From Gemmatimonas phototrophica (GTDB taxonomy: Bacteria; Gemmatimonadota; Gemmatimonadetes; Gemmatimonadales; Gemmatimonadaceae), in NCBI GenBank assembly GCA_945869195.1, contig CAMBNV010000004.1:124001-188000 (forward strand): a DNA stretch of 64,000 nucleotides. Direction: 5' to 3'. The position numbers and the translations under genes were made by a program. Under the pieces are notes generated by a model, which saw only the letters and a list, made by a program, of their open reading frames with translations, had not been told where the DNA came from and did not search any database. Shown piece after piece: positions 5,883 to 32,983 of this stretch (the stretch's first letter is position 1; each line of letters opens with the position of its first letter).

Positions 5883-6727
5883 TTGAACCAGTGCCCTATG
5901 CGGGACCAGCGGATGTCGGTGAGGGCGGGCCACGGACGGTCGGAGTCGTCCGCGTTCCATGAGTAGTACACGAACAGGGGGCGGCCGCGCACGTTCGCCC
6001 GCGGCACGAAGCTCCAGAACCGGCTGTCCTTCGAGTTATGGCGGTTGTCGCCCATCATCCAGTAGTGCCCGGGGGGGACGACGAGTGGGCCCCAGTCGTC
6101 CACCGTTGGCTGCTCAGGCGCGGGACCGAAACGCGACTCTGTGAGCTGCACGCGCTTTTGCCAGTCGAACAGAGGGTCGACCGCGTCGCCCGGCGTTCCG
6201 GGAAGCGTCGCGACATCGCTCGGTTGCTGTGGGTTCCCGTTGAGGTGGACCACGCCGTTACGCGAATGCAGCGTGTCGCCCGGCATCCCGACGAGCCGCT
6301 TCACGAGGATCGGCGTCGGGTCCCAGGGCTGGTCGATCTGCAACGGGGAGATAAACACGACAATGTCGCCGCGCTCGGGATCGGCATATCCAGGAAGGTT
6401 GATCTCGGTGAACGGAAGGTGCGGGCCAAAACGCAGCTTGTTCACGAAGAGCCAGTCGCCAATGAGCATCGACGGAATCATTGAACCCGACGGGATGCGA
6501 TACGCCTCGACGAGGAAGGTGCGGAGAATCAGAAAGAGCGCGATCGTCATCGCGATCGACTTGAACGCCTCCCAGATCCGCGGCGGCGAGAACTTCGCGC
6601 CGCCACCGGTACGGCCGCCGGTGCGACTGCGGGCGTCGGCCACGGAGCCGGTGGACTTCTCGAGTTTACTGGGTCTGGTCGCGGCCACGTCGGATCGGAA
6701 AAGGGGAACGGAGGCGCAACCCACCAC
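5879..6727 (-). CDS. lepB: signal peptidase I
   Basis: Membrane serine peptidase that removes Sec/Tat signal peptides. The catalytic Ser is in PSGSMIPSM and the general-base Lys in VKRLVGMPGD; RGDIVVF and the C-terminal GDNRHNSKDSR box are also present. One membrane helix (SIAMTIALFLILRTFLVEA) precedes the catalytic domain. Up to 282 residues; the start is uncertain because the first 40 residues are low-complexity and poorly conserved. It heads an operon with the RidA-like lipoprotein, a membrane protein and the M24 peptidase. Confidence 0.93.
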   Translation of the reverse strand: MVGCASVPLFRSDVAATRPSKLEKSTGSVADARSRTGGRTGGGAKFSPPRIWEAFKSIAMTIALFLILRTFLVEAYRIPSGSMIPSMLIGDWLFVNKLRFGPHLPFTEINLPGYADPERGDIVVFISPLQIDQPWDPTPILVKRLVGMPGDTLHSRNGVVHLNGNPQQPSDVATLPGTPGDAVDPLFDWQKRVQLTESRFGPAPEQPTVDDWGPLVVPPGHYWMMGDNRHNSKDSRFWSFVPRANVRGRPLFVYYSWNADDSDRPWPALTDIRWSRIGHWFK

Positions 6728-16469: not shown

Positions 16470-19400
16470 CTACTTCCCCTTCGGGGTCGCGTACTCCCCG
16501 GTCATGGGCCGCACCGGGAAACTGAAGAACTGGGCGAACCACTGCCGCCAATCGTCCATGATCTCGTAGACCGTCGGGATCACGAGCAGCGTGAGAAACG
16601 TCGAGGTGATCGTCCCACCGATAATCGCCCGCCCGAGCGGGGCCCGGAAGTCGGCCCCTTCGCCGATGCCGAGTGCCACGGGGATCATGCCGGCGATAAG
16701 TGCGAGCGTCGTCATCAGGATTGGCCGCAGGCGCACCCGCCCCGCCTCAATGATTGCTTCGCGCCGCGCCATCCCCTGCTCCTGACCCCACTTGGCGAAG
16801 TCAATGAGCAGGATTGCGTTCTTCGCGACGATGCCCATCAAGAGGATCACGCCAATCATTGACATGATGTTCAGCGTGTCCCCCGTGATCAGCAGCGCGA
16901 GCACGACTCCGATAAGCGAGAGCGGCAGCGAGATCAGGATCGCGATTGGTTCAAGGAAGGAGCCGAACTGCATCACGAGGATCAGGTACATCAGCAGAAA
17001 AGCGATGCCGAGGGCGGCCAGGATGTCACCGAACACCTGCGCCTGGTCCCTCGCCTCGCCGCCGAGCGACCAGCGAATGCCGGTGGGCACCGTCAGGAGC
17101 CCGAGCTGCCGTTGGATTTCACTGGTCACCTCGCCGAGTGAACGGCCCGAAAGATTGGCCTGCACCACGATCACTTTGTCGCGATCGAGATGCGAGATCT
17201 TGGCCGGTCCGATGCCCTGTGAGACCGTGGCGAGCTGCCCGAGCGGCATCATGGTCATGCGTCCGTTGGGGTTGCCAACAGCAATCGGAAGTCGCTCGAT
17301 GTCCTGGATGCGCGCGCGCGACTGGGGTGCGAGCCGCACCCGCACTTTTCTATTCTCGCCGGAGGGATCGATCCAGTCGCCGGCGTCGACACCAGCGAAG
17401 GCCGGACGCAGCGACTGCGCGAGCTGGCCCACCGACACGCCAAGCGTCCCCGCGAGCGAGCGGTTCAGCGTGATCTCGAGCTCGGGCTTCTGGCCCTTGG
17501 TCGAGAGGCCGACGTCGACCGCACCGGGAACGGCTTTCACCAGGATGAGCACGCTATCGGCGAACCGCTGCAGCTGCTGCGAGTCATTGCCACGCAGCTC
17601 GAGTTGCACCTGCTTGACCGCGCCGCCAAACCCCGATGTGAAGACGGCCACCGTGGCCCCACCGATCTGTTTGACCTCCTCACGCAGTGTGGCGCCGAAG
17701 TCGTCCTGACTGAAACTGCGCGTCGCCTTTGGCGTCAGTCGCACATAGACCGACGCAAGGTCCACCGCGCCGAGCGCCTCGGACGGATCCATGCCGGCGC
17801 CAGCGCCGATCGTCGTGAACGTGTACCGCACCTCGTCGTGCGCGCGCGCGAGCCGGGCAGCCTCTTCGGCCTTCAGTCGGGTGTACGCGAGGTTCGATCC
17901 CGGTGGAGTCTCCACCTGGATCGTGATCTCGGAGCGGTCGGAGATCGGCACGAAGCCGAAACCGCCGAACGTGGCCTGCAGCCAGAGTGCACCGACCATG
18001 CTCCCGGTGGCGAGCAACACCATCGTATACCGGTGATCGAGGGCCCATCCGATGACGCTTGTGTAGCGCTGCGCCATCCGGTCAAACCACGCATTGAAGA
18101 CCACGAGCTTGCGCGAGATCCAGCTGCGATGCTCGTGCGCCTCGATCTCGGGGTCGGGCCAGTAGGCCGAGAGCATGGGGTCGAGCGAGAACGAAACGAG
18201 GAGCGACACCAGTACCGCGCAGGCGATCGTGAGGGCGAACGGCTTGAACCACTGGCCCGAGATGCCGTACATGAAGGCGATCGGCACGAAGACTGCGACG
18301 ATTGAAAAGGTCGTCGCCGCGACGGCGAGCCCGATCTCGTTCGTCCCCTCGTGCGCCGCCCTGAAGTGATCTTTCCCCATCTCGACGTGGCGCACGATGT
18401 TCTCGCGCACCACGATCGCGTCGTCAATCAGGATGCCGATCGCCAGCGAGAGGCCGAGCAGCGACATCGTGTTCAGCGTGAAGCCGAATGCCCAGACGGC
18501 GATGAAACTCGCGAGCACCGAGATCGGGAGAGCGAGGCCGGTGATGACGGTCGATCGCCAGGAGTTCAGAAACAAGAACACCACGAGCACCGTCAGCAGT
18601 GCGCCTTCGATGAGCGTGCTCTGCACATTCGCCACCGAGGCGGTCACGCGCTCGCCGGCATCCTGGACCACATCGATGGTCGTGCCGACAGGGAGCGTCG
18701 GACGGAGTTCTGCGACGGCGGCGATCACTGCCTCGCTCACCGCCGTGGTCGAGTAGCCCTTGGATTTCTTGATCATGAGACCAACGGCGTCCTTTCCGTT
18801 GTAAATCGCCGCGGTGCGGGGCTCCGCCGTTCCGTCGCGGGCCGAGGCGACTTCACCGAGCCGGATGGCGCGCCCCCCCCGCTCGGCCACGATCAGGCGG
18901 AGGAAGTCCTCAGGCGTGTCGAGCTTTCCCTTGAGCCGGATCGCCCGCTCATCGATCGCGCCGTTCAACCGACCGACGGGCACCGCGAGGTTCTGCACTT
19001 GGAGCGCGCCAACGATCTGCGCGACCGTGATACCCGCCGCTTCCATGGCGTCGGCTCGGATCTCCACGGTCAGTTCACGCTCGATACCGCCCACGACGTT
19101 CGCTTCGGCCACGCCGGGAATTCCGCGCAGTGCGCGCGTGATTCCAGGGTCGGCGATGCGGCTGAGCGCGGCGGCCGAGAGTACCGTCGAGTTGAGCGAG
19201 AGTTGAACGATCGGCTGGTCGGCGGGATCGAAACGCGTCAGCACCGGCTCCTTCATCTCGATCGGCAGGTCCGACCGAATGGAGCTGATCTTATCACGAA
19301 TGTCCTGCGACGCCTGCTGCAGGTCCTTCTCGAACACGAAGAAGACCGTCACGTTGGCGAAGCCGTCCTGCGCCGCGCCAGAGATGCGCTCAACGCCGGA

Positions 19401-19622
19401 GATCCCACTGACGGCCTCCTCGACGCGGTCGAGCACCTCGCGCTCTACCACGTCGGGCGACGCACCCGGGTACGGAATCGCGACGTTGATAATCGGCTGC
19501 TGCACGTCGGGGAACTCGTCGGTCTCGAGCTGCCAGAGGGAGAAGAGACCGAACACGACCAGGGCCACCATGGAGACGATGGTGACCAACGGACGCTTGA
19601 TGGCAAAATCAGAGATGAGCAT
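16470..19622 (-). CDS. RND efflux pump inner-membrane permease (HAE1 family)
   Basis: 1050 residues, full length for AcrB/MexB-type pumps, which use the proton gradient to export drugs or other hydrophobic compounds across both membranes. N-terminal [20 protein letters not shown] is the first membrane helix. The proton-relay Asp pair is in [14 protein letters not shown] (TM4). The twelve-helix, two-periplasmic-loop layout is clear. It is the last gene of the operon after the fused regulator-channel and the adaptor. Substrate unknown. Confidence 0.95.
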
Positions 19623-19668: not shown

Positions 19669-20781
19669 CTACGGTGTGCGCGGCCGACTGTCGGTCGGCG
19701 CCGTCACCTTTAACGGCACATTGGGCCTGATCCCGAGCGCGGGCCCGATCAGCAGTGTGTCGCCGGGAACGACGCCCGACCGAATCTCCACCCGCTCCTG
19801 CGCTTCGTCTTTCGCGCCGAGCGTGACGTCGACCTTCTCCGTCCGACCGTTCTTCAGACGCAGCACTGACGGTAGGAGTCCCCGATTGTCTATCGCCAGT
19901 TCTGGCACGGTGAGCGTCTCACGCGAGTCGCTCGCGACGCGACCCTCGGCGAACAGGCCGGCGACGAGCTGATTCCCATTGTTTGGAATGCGTACGAAGA
20001 GGCGTACCTGACGCGTCTGCGGATCGGCCGAGGGATTGATGCTCGAGATCGTCCCCGCAAACGTCCGGCCAGGATACCCCGTCACCGAGAAGCGCACCGG
20101 CGCACCGACGCGCACCTGCGCCAACTGCTCGGCCGGCACCGCGGCCTCGAGTCGCATCGTCGCCGGATCCACGATGTTGAACAGCGGCGAACCCGGAGCG
20201 ACGACGTCGCCCGGATTCACAAAGCGCTCGCTCACCACGCCGGCATAGGGCGCGAGTACGTTCGTCGCGTCGAGCTGCTTCTGCGCCGAGGCAAGTCGGG
20301 CACGCGCGTCATCGAGCAGAGAGCGCGCGCCAAGATCACCACGGCGGGCATTCTCCACCTCACGATCACTGATCGCGCCCACCTGCACGAGCTTCTCGGA
20401 ACGTTCGAGATCGCGCTGCGCGATGTCGGCGGCGGTCTGCGCAGCGGTAAGACCCGAGCGCGCCGAAAGTGCGGCGTCGTTGATCGCGCGGTCATCAATC
20501 TTGGCCAGCGAGGTCCCCTCCGCCACCTGCGCGCCGGGATCATGGAAGACCTGCACGACGGAGCCGGGGACTTGGGCACGGATCTGCGCCGTTCGCTCGG
20601 CCACAAGCGACCCCGAAAGGATTGGTCCAGTGGAAAGGATCGTGGTCGCGGCGACGGTCATCGCCTCTGGGCCCACCAGTACCGTCACCTCCGACGGCGC
20701 CTCGTTTGTCGCGGTCGATTTGCCGCAGGCCGCGAGAAGAATGGGGAGCGCGGCCGCGAGGCCAATGGCACGACGGAACAT
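19669..20781 (-). CDS. RND efflux periplasmic adaptor (membrane fusion) lipoprotein
   Basis: 370 residues. The ATG at 20781 is preferred to an in-frame start at 20817 because GAGGAAG lies 6 bases before it and it begins a clean lipoprotein signal (FRRAIGLAAALPILLAAC). Order: barrel-sandwich/lipoyl half (VPGSVVQVFHDPGAQV), alpha-helical hairpin (~95-165), second lipoyl half (NVLAPYAGVVSERFVNPGDVV) and beta-barrel domain. It bridges the permease and the TolC-like channel. It is encoded between them. Confidence 0.93.
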   Translation of the reverse strand: MFRRAIGLAAALPILLAACGKSTATNEAPSEVTVLVGPEAMTVAATTILSTGPILSGSLVAERTAQIRAQVPGSVVQVFHDPGAQVAEGTSLAKIDDRAINDAALSARSGLTAAQTAADIAQRDLERSEKLVQVGAISDREVENARRGDLGARSLLDDARARLASAQKQLDATNVLAPYAGVVSERFVNPGDVVAPGSPLFNIVDPATMRLEAAVPAEQLAQVRVGAPVRFSVTGYPGRTFAGTISSINPSADPQTRQVRLFVRIPNNGNQLVAGLFAEGRVASDSRETLTVPELAIDNRGLLPSVLRLKNGRTEKVDVTLGAKDEAQERVEIRSGVVPGDTLLIGPALGIRPNVPLKVTAPTDSRPRTP

Positions 20782-20819
20782 CTGGGACTTCCTCAGGTTG
20801 ATGAGCGAGACGGTCATAG

Positions 20820-22829
20820 TCAGCGTCCCCCGGTGACGAGGGGGAGATCTTTCAGGAGTGCGAGTCGGAGCTTCGCGAGTTCGAGGTCGCGCGCCGCCTG
20901 CACCCGCTGCAGGCGCGCCTGCACGAGCTGCATGCGGACCTCGGTGAGTTCGAGCTGCGTGGAGATCCCCTCTTGGAAGCGTACTTCGGCGATGCGGTAC
21001 GCCTGCGCTGCCTGGGAGTCGGTGCCGACCGACGCGAGGTAGCTGGCCTGCGCCTGCTCGAGCGCCGAGAGCGCGAGCAGCGCGTCGAGTGACGCGCCCT
21101 CGCGTGTCTGCTGCAGGCGCAGCTGCGCCTCCGTCAGGTTCGCTTCGGCGACCATCCGGTCACCGCGGAGCCGCCCACCGGTGAGCACCGGAAACGAGAG
21201 TCCGAGCGAGACATTCCAATTGGGAAAGTAGAGGTCGAGCGCGGACGGGAGAAACGTCCCCTCCGTTGGATAGGCGAACCGCTGATACGTGCTGGAAAGC
21301 TGTACCGACGGCAGGCGCGCGTTTTGCGCCGCTCTGAGCGCCTGCTCCGACGCGCCCACCTGCGCCTGGGCCTGCCGGACCGTCGCGCGCGCCGCGACCG
21401 TTGTGTCGGGGGTGATGGTGCGGTCGTCGGCGAGCGTTATCGGGCCGGTGATTTCAGAGACCGTCGCGGCGGCGTCGCGGATTGGCGTGGTGAGCTCCAG
21501 CGGCGTTGCGAGCGGCAGGTCGAGTAGCTGTTTTAGGCGCAAATACGCCGTCGTGCGCGCGCCACGCGCCTGAATCACCAGAGGCTTCTGGTTGTCGCGC
21601 GTCACGCGAGCGCGCAACAGGTCAAACTCGGCGGCGGCACCGACGGCTCGCGCTACCTGCGTCTGCTCGAGCGTACGGGTCGTCAGCACAAGCGAGCTTT
21701 CGGCAATCGCAAGGAACTGGTCGGCGGCGACGGCATCGAAGTAGGCCTGGGCGGCCTCGAGTACCGCCTGCGCCTGGGACGAGGTGTAGGCGATATCGGC
21801 AGCGGTGCGTGCGGCGTTGGCACCGGCACGCTGCGCCGGAAGGCGCCCGGCCGTATAGAGATTCTGCGTCGCGCTGAGGGTGACCGAAAAGGTGTTGGGT
21901 GCCGCAAAGATGCGCGCCAGCGGCGAATCCTCGAAACCGCCGCCCGCAGAGCCACTGCTGTCGGACGGCCCGGCAAAGCGAGTCGAGATAGCCTCGAACT
22001 GGCTCTCGAGCGCACGCTGATACCCCGCGCTGCCGTTGATCTGTGGCAGCCGCTGCGAGTTGGCCTGTACCTGCTGGCCGCGCGCGCGCGTCACTCCGGC
22101 CCCGGCAATCGCGACTGCCTCGCTCTTTCGTTCGGCGATCCGCAGGGCCTCGGCAAGAGAGAGTGTCCCACTGGGTGCGCCCGCGAGATTGCCGGTGGGC
22201 TGCTGGGCGACGGCACGCACGGGCAGCAGCACCGGCAGCAGCGCGAGCAGGAGTAGCGCGACGGTAGCACCGAGGGAGCGAAGAAAGAGTCGCACGTATT
22301 TAGCGGGGGCTTGGTCGAGAGGAGGAAACATTTCTGGCATGAGGGCGCGCCCCATAGCGTCGGCAAAGAGCGTGCCCTTGAGCATGGCGGCGGCGGTGGT
22401 ATCGACGGCGGACGGGATGAAGCCGTGCTGGGCGAGGCGTTCGACGTACCCCGTCAGATCCTTGAAGGACTGCATGGGGTGCTCCGTAGTGGGCTCGGCA
22501 CACTCTGGTCGTTCGTGCATCTCGGCCATCGAGGTGAGGAGCATGCCACGGGCCTCGAGCAGGAACGCATGGTCGGCCTCCACCCAGGTGGTGAGTTCGG
22601 CAATCGGGTCGACTGGAACATCGGGGAGCGGTGCGGCGGCGGGGACGCGCGAGCGCGCGCGTACCGCCGCCGCGATGAGTTCGCGCTTGGAACGAAACAG
22701 GCGAAAGAGTGTGACTTCGTTTACCCCCGCCGCCTCAGCAATCCGGCGCGTGGTCGCGCCACGAAACCCCGACGCGGAGTAGAGGCGTGCGGCGGCCTCG
22801 AGGAGTTGTGTGCGAGCTGGACAAGTCAT
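20820..22829 (-). CDS. TetR-type regulator fused in frame to a TolC-like outer-membrane channel
   Basis: One uninterrupted frame of 669 residues from the ATG at 22829. Residues ~1-185 are a TetR family regulator: the helix-turn-helix reads TTRRIAEAAGVNEVTLFRLF and the ligand domain ends with the family-typical KYVRLFLRSLGA. This runs without a stop into a hydrophobic segment (ATVALLLLALLPVLLPVRAVA) that looks like the core and AxA cleavage site of a signal peptide. The remaining ~460 residues are an outer-membrane efflux protein with the two coiled-coil repeats of TolC. No ribosome binding site is seen before the only candidate internal starts (GTG near 22295, ATG near 22331). Export and cleavage would leave the regulator inside; alternatively a sequencing error hides a stop. 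Confidence 0.85.
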   Translation of the reverse strand: MTCPARTQLLEAAARLYSASGFRGATTRRIAEAAGVNEVTLFRLFRSKRELIAAAVRARSRVPAAAPLPDVPVDPIAELTTWVEADHAFLLEARGMLLTSMAEMHERPECAEPTTEHPMQSFKDLTGYVERLAQHGFIPSAVDTTAAAMLKGTLFADAMGRALMPEMFPPLDQAPAKYVRLFLRSLGATVALLLLALLPVLLPVRAVAQQPTGNLAGAPSGTLSLAEALRIAERKSEAVAIAGAGVTRARGQQVQANSQRLPQINGSAGYQRALESQFEAISTRFAGPSDSSGSAGGGFEDSPLARIFAAPNTFSVTLSATQNLYTAGRLPAQRAGANAARTAADIAYTSSQAQAVLEAAQAYFDAVAADQFLAIAESSLVLTTRTLEQTQVARAVGAAAEFDLLRARVTRDNQKPLVIQARGARTTAYLRLKQLLDLPLATPLELTTPIRDAAATVSEITGPITLADDRTITPDTTVAARATVRQAQAQVGASEQALRAAQNARLPSVQLSSTYQRFAYPTEGTFLPSALDLYFPNWNVSLGLSFPVLTGGRLRGDRMVAEANLTEAQLRLQQTREGASLDALLALSALEQAQASYLASVGTDSQAAQAYRIAEVRFQEGISTQLELTEVRMQLVQARLQRVQAARDLELAKLRLALLKDLPLVTGGR

Positions 22830-22839
22830 TTTTGACTTA

Positions 22840-22853
22840 GTGAAATATTTCAC
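22840..22853. promoter_or_regulatory. perfect palindrome, candidate TetR operator
   Basis: GTGAAATATTTCAC is a perfect 14-base inverted repeat starting 11 bases upstream of the fused tetR-tolC start codon. TetR repressors commonly bind such sites in their own promoters, so autoregulation of the efflux operon is inferred. Confidence 0.55.
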
Positions 22854-22864
22854 AACGCAAGCGG

Positions 22865-22881
22865 CCACTTACATATAGTGG
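22865..22881. promoter_or_regulatory. second inverted repeat in the efflux promoter
   Basis: CCACT and AGTGG arms separated by TACATAT. AT-rich compared with its surroundings, it lies between the perfect palindrome and the divergent msrB side and could be a promoter core or second operator. The rest of the ~250-base gap up to msrB holds no gene I can support. Confidence 0.35.
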
Positions 22882-23134: not shown

Positions 23135-23605
23135 ATGCCCACGCAGAAGCCCACCGACCCTACCCTCGCCGCGAAACTCTCGCCGATGCAGTTCCAGGTC
23201 ACGCAGTGCAGCGCGACCGAACCGCCGTTTCGCAACGAGTTCTGGGATCATCACGAGTCCGGTCTCTATGTCGACATCGTCTCGGGCGAACCACTCTTCT
23301 CCTCGCTCCACAAGTTCGATTCGGGCACCGGATGGCCCTCGTTCACACAACCCGCGGTGCCGAAAAACGTCGCCGAGGTGCGTGACGTCTCGCACTTCAT
23401 GGTGCGCACCGAGGTGCGGTCGGTCGGCGGCGATTCACACCTCGGGCACCTCTTCGATGACGGCCCTGGTCCGACCGGGATGCGCTATTGCATCAACTCG
23501 GCCTCGCTGCGTTTTATCCCGACCCAGGAGCTCGCGGCGGAGGGCTACGAGAAGTTTGTCCCGCTGTTCGAGGATCAGGCGCGCCGGAACGCGGAGGGGA
23601 AATGA
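23135..23605 (+). CDS. msrB: peptide-methionine (R)-S-oxide reductase
   Basis: 156 residues. Repairs methionine-R-sulfoxide in proteins. Motifs: GTGWPSF, SHLGHLF and the catalytic Cys in RYCINSASL. The two CxxC zinc motifs of many MsrBs are absent, so this is the zinc-free type. It overlaps msrA by 4 bases (ATGA), giving a coupled pair that covers both sulfoxide stereoisomers. Confidence 0.95.
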
Positions 23606-24132
23606 ACGACGTCGCGACCCTCGGCGGAGGCTGCTTCTGGTGCCTCGAGGCGGTCTACCTCGAACTACGGGGCGTGCAGGGCGTGAAGAGCGGCTACGCC
23701 GGCGGACACGTCACCAACCCCACCTATGAGCACGTCTGCGGCAAGAAGACCGGTCACGCCGAGGTGGTCCAGGTGACGTTTGACGCGAGCGCGATTACGT
23801 ACGCCGAGCTGCTCGAGGTCTTCTTCACGATTCATGACCCGACCACGCAGGACCGGCAGGGGAACGACGTCGGGCCACAGTATCGCTCGGCGATCTTCGC
23901 GCACTCAGCAGAACAGGAGCGCGTCGCGCGCGAACAGCTCGCGGCGGCACAGGCGCATTGGGACGCGCCGATCGTCACCGAGCTGCGGCCGCTCGACCAC
24001 TTCTGGCCCGCAGAGCAGTACCATGACGATTATTTCGCGCGGAATCCGGAGAATCCATACTGCGCCGTGGTCGTGGCGCCCAAAGTGTCGAAGGCGCGCA
24101 AGCGCTTCATTGACAAGCTCGCGCGCCGCTAG
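23602..24132 (+). CDS. msrA: peptide-methionine (S)-S-oxide reductase
   Basis: 176 residues starting at the ATG that overlaps the msrB stop. The catalytic Cys is in [12 protein letters not shown], followed by [16 protein letters not shown] and the conserved [16 protein letters not shown]. Reduces methionine-S-sulfoxide using thioredoxin. No signal peptide, so cytoplasmic. Confidence 0.95.

Positions 24133-28147: not shown

Positions 28148-32983
<4,836 letters not shown>

Follow-up and report, generated by a model that had tools for sequence, protein, structure and literature searches.

Local control of RND operons by TetR-type regulators is standard, and the regulator gene is usually divergent from the operon (PMC8277102). 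AcrR, and MexL of the MexJK system, have a TetR HTH and an all-helical ligand domain, and their pump operon is preceded by a palindromic operator. The same features are found in the gene described here, which lies in a 64,000-nucleotide stretch of Gemmatimonas phototrophica DNA (the window, meaning the whole stretch that was analysed). However, AcrR and MexL are separate soluble proteins, usually expressed from a divergent gene, whereas the regulator in the window is the first gene of the operon and is fused to the channel. With the channels TolC and OprM the fusion has in common the OEP repeats, the TolC fold and a cleavable signal peptide (predicted here), but its signal peptide is internal, with a stretch of DNA-binding protein some 180 residues long ahead of it. 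Bacterial polyproteins that are split by signal peptidase exist, for example FbcH (cytochrome b-c1) of Bradyrhizobium. In FbcH, too, a single frame encodes two proteins and the cut falls at an internal signal peptide; those two are subunits of one complex, whereas here a cytoplasmic transcription factor is combined with an outer-membrane protein. In the RsiV/SigV system signal peptidase is the site-1 protease and RasP the site-2 protease, and site-2 proteases (S2Ps) also remove signal-peptide remnants (PMC9044953). In RsiV, as in the predicted layout of the fusion, a regulator domain in the cytoplasm is followed by one membrane segment that bears a signal-peptidase site, and here too an S2P is encoded. 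RsiV is, however, an anti-sigma factor that is cut upon lysozyme binding, whereas the regulator here is a DNA-binding repressor and the part predicted to be released is an outer-membrane channel. A limited literature search gave no description of a TetR–TolC fusion or of a membrane-linked TetR.

The first-pass annotation had reported a single frame at 20820–22868 that joins a complete TetR to a complete TolC. The open reading frame list and the translation agree that this frame, on the minus strand, is open (682 codons, no stop). Pfam analysis of the 682-codon frame placed TetR_N (PF00440; 49 bits, cutoff 24) at residues 22–68 and OEP (PF02321; 141.8 bits) up to residue 672. Fold searches matched the N-terminal half to MexL, PfmR and other TetRs and the channel half to TolC, OprM and CusC; MexL was also among the best sequence matches of the TetR half. 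Both domains are complete with no stop between them. The upstream limit of the frame, a GTG at 22868, did not hold up as the start codon. Homologues begin at the ATG at 22829 (their N-termini align there as M-T/S-E/D-P-T-R/K), and the GTG falls within the putative operator (22857–22872), so the true start is almost certainly this ATG. The gene then runs from 22829 to the stop at 20820 (minus strand) and encodes 669 amino acids. Residues 1–188 (22266–22829) make up the TetR half, with the HTH at about residues 9–55; residues 177–208 (22206–22301) form the join; and residues 209–669 (20823–22205) would be the mature channel after cleavage. The RND periplasmic adaptor (19669–20817, minus strand) starts 2 nt past the fusion stop, and the AcrB/MdtB-like RND pump (16470–19622, minus strand) lies downstream of the adaptor. 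Where this could be tested in other fused loci, the adaptor came next in 19 of 20 and the pump was present in 19 of 19. By eye, open reading frames near the pump operon resemble methionine sulfoxide reductases (23135–24132, plus strand) and a catalase-peroxidase (28148–30499, minus strand).

At the join, the last TetR helix, KYVRLFLRSLGA, merges with a predicted signal peptide that ends in AVA, with cleavage expected before QQ; the sequence in the window is KYVRLFLRSLGATVALLLLALLPVLLPVRAVA/QQPTG, the slash marking the predicted cut. The suggestion that one stretch acts both as the end of TetR and as the n-region of the signal peptide was supported. The hydrophobic core and the cleavage motif of this internal signal peptide recur, with essentially no exception, across the 23 fusions that we collected, with Ala at −1 (Ser once) and Gln at +1, which agrees with the signal peptidase site proposed earlier. 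The structure model contains a complete TetR up to residue 185 (residues 6–185 helical, high confidence), a separate hydrophobic helix (188–200), a disordered segment (201–215) and then the TolC fold. Pairwise identity in the shared helix, KYVRLFLRSLG, is 87.5% within the fused genus vs 54.9% in a sister clade with separate genes, and the HTH (82.4%) and the ligand domain (57.8%) of the fused genus both fall below it. Among 179 ten-residue TetR windows, KYVRLFLRSL has the largest rise in conservation, as expected if the helix now does two jobs. It also offers a reason for the absence of observed reversals to separate genes: the helix has no residue to give up to a stop codon.

A comparison set of 90 distinct neighbouring tetR–tolC pairs contained 23 fusions (16 in the source genus, 6 in genus g25 and 1 in g3) and 67 pairs of separate genes. 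In the separate loci the TetR stop lies within about 10–120 nt of the last helix, and the TolC start is close by in any frame. In other Gemmatimonadaceae genera tetR and tolC are mostly adjacent but separate. No uninterrupted fusion outside Gemmatimonadaceae was found among the matches listed for 395 genomes of the phylum, in which fused forms rank first; in the Zixibacteria locus L139 tetR and tolC are neighbours and are not fused. On a quick tree of 84 pairs, built with the join excluded, the fused state requires at least four changes, and the starred branches force the same number. The fused groups are the genus (14 rows, support 100), L074/L076/L077/L088, L079/L080 and L121. Since separate genes are the commoner state on all sides, this pattern reads as at least four independent fusions. 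The argument rests on parsimony and on differing linkers: the halves are joined directly in the genus and through GRRRAL, RKRTITRVRRAL or KPKARARKR types elsewhere. In every type, a basic stretch at the TetR end stands in for the signal-peptide n-region. A less likely history is an early fusion that was then lost many times. In seven loci of other genera (L029, L044, L045, L158, L162, L164 and L165) only one stop codon separates tetR from an in-frame tolC, and a single substitution there would be enough to produce a fusion.

Both halves are conserved, and purifying selection acts on each of them, as judged from dN/dS values for four species pairs (HTH about 0.06–0.14, ligand domain 0.07–0.20, TolC 0.06–0.23). 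The putative operator upstream, GTAAGTGGCCGCTTGC (22857–22872, minus strand), is palindromic, and it is the sole perfect match of the motif GYAAGYNNNNRCTTGC in the genome of the window. This motif occurs within 250 nt upstream of 23 of 23 fused and 65 of 67 separate loci and is absent from 254 kb of sequence downstream. At an E cutoff of 0.001 the genome yielded no second TetR of the same subfamily. The simplest reading is that the fused regulator would locally autorepress the pump operon through the predicted operator. Two operator copies are present in 17 of 23 fused loci vs 19 of the 65 separate loci with a perfect motif, a difference that is confounded with ancestry. Between the operator and the start codon lies a perfect 14-bp palindrome, GTGAAATATTTCAC (22840–22853), possibly the site of a second regulator; L065 has a similar palindrome, GTGAACGTTTTCAC, and most other relatives have none. 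Almost all tetR starts in the 84–90 loci considered, that at 22829 included, have no Shine–Dalgarno sequence, and the tetR ATG of separate loci often follows the end of a −10-like box at a distance below 10 nt. Together these two observations hint that tetR mRNAs are leaderless.

Because no stop separates the two halves, TetR is always synthesised as part of one chain with TolC. We consider it probable, from the features of the sequence, that the product is a polyprotein cut by signal peptidase, and that the remnant is an autorepressor with a hydrophobic C-terminal tail, either tethered or freed by an S2P. TetR would fold in the cytoplasm, and Sec would insert the internal signal sequence N-in/C-out; signal peptidase would cut after A208 and TolC would move on to the outer membrane. 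The TetR dimer would retain a hydrophobic C-terminal tail of about 20 residues and either stay on the inner membrane or be freed by an RseP-type protease, and the tailed TetR would repress its own pump operon. Signal peptidase I (Peptidase_S26; 5963–6574, minus strand), an enzyme of the type that should cleave at the join, is encoded in the window and is one of two in the genome, which also encodes an S2P-type protease (Peptidase_M50, E 1.3e-58). By analogy, the predicted TetR remnant has the topology of S2P substrates; after the cut it may be a tethered stub or an S2P-freed protein, the sequence being compatible with both.

Several other readings were weighed against this one. The genome of the window is a draft in 15 contigs, and a sequencing or assembly artefact might mask a stop or a frameshift between the halves. 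A search for the same join in relatives, proposed in the first-pass annotation, recovered it uninterrupted in 16 of 17 genomes of the source genus, one of them closed, and further fusions in other lineages. An error in a single assembly, such as an overlooked stop or indel, therefore cannot account for the fusion; the 16 genomes rule this reading out, and we give it a vanishingly small probability. Relatives do not always encode two genes: the fused form is general in the genus and recurs in three or more other lineages, and most other genera have two genes. The 14 full-length fusions in the genus (63–84% identity) include those of G011 (closed, one contig), G005 (three contigs) and G015 (seven contigs). 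In G004 and G013 the join is intact and the gene breaks further on within the TolC half: L084 (G004) is frameshifted well beyond the join, and L092 (G013) has a gap and a contig end there. Both breaks are probably assembly faults. A match to the fusion was not found in G002, a genome that is 71% complete. The named fusion records from the collection scan are MAGs of uncultured Gemmatimonadota, several of them named after lakes; the carriers are uncultured bacteria of lakes and soils. The idea that the TetR half is a leftover that no longer regulates anything has the odd position of this half in its favour and nothing more; the conserved HTH, the low dN/dS and the operator kept in all 23 fused loci make this very improbable. 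Internal initiation is a more substantial alternative, in which most TolC would come from a start inside the end of tetR (the GTG at YVRL or the ATG at MPEMFPP) and have an ordinary signal peptide, the full-length chain mainly making TetR. If started at the GTG, VRLFLRSLGATVALLLL... would be a good signal peptide; the V of YVRL is GTG in 13 of 16 genus members, and all 16 have conserved in-frame ATGs about 25 codons upstream. However, three members have another codon for this V (GTC in L016 and L018, GTT in L021), which excludes the GTG as a universal internal start, and in L071 and L080 the join is free of ATG, GTG and TTG. A hidden start site or regulatory element should show as excess synonymous conservation; the join has no such excess, and a hidden element at this position was rejected on this ground. 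The Shine–Dalgarno comparison at the internal starts does not discriminate, true tetR starts mostly having none either. The variant codons, the two joins with no start codon and the ordinary synonymous conservation led us to place the polyprotein ahead of internal initiation, which we regard as unlikely; even then the fusion would remain, with TetR having no stop of its own.

Why the fusion exists is a separate question from how its product is processed, and our judgements on the two overlap deliberately. Fusion could have recurred because the basic C-terminal end of TetR can double as n-region for the signal peptide next to it, with signal peptidase then replacing the lost stop codon. The loss of the stop may then have been neutral: the fusion would be real and cut by signal peptidase, TetR would thereafter be an ordinary free repressor, and the joining would have no regulatory meaning. 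At least four independent origins among otherwise similar operons, the same operator in fused and separate loci and the variable C-terminal tails of separate TetRs all point in this direction. The retention of the fusion throughout a diverse genus speaks against it, but retention does not prove a benefit, since the shared helix has no place at which a stop could come back. The simpler account, and a serious rival to which we give slightly less than an even chance, is that the stop was lost repeatedly and that no harm followed, since signal peptidase parts the products anyway. The first-pass annotation had instead proposed a self-metering of pump dosage, which may at most be a benefit of the arrangement. 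In the boldest reading, each exported TolC would leave one TetR at the inner membrane, or free one after the S2P cut, so that the operon would be shut off in proportion to the channels exported; a block of translocation or of signal peptidase would lock the repressor in the uncut precursor, and the pump genes would respond. We hold this scheme to be unlikely.

Fused genes of this kind could be misread by genome annotators and domain-based tools. The joins also point to a possible general route of gene fusion, in which a protein's basic C-terminus comes to supply the n-region for the signal peptide of the protein encoded next. In these bacteria a transcription factor and an outer-membrane protein form a conserved, repeatedly evolved single chain in which signal peptidase likely takes the place of a stop codon. 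The processing that we propose predicts a TetR repressor linked to the membrane, and an obligatory supply of one repressor for every channel.
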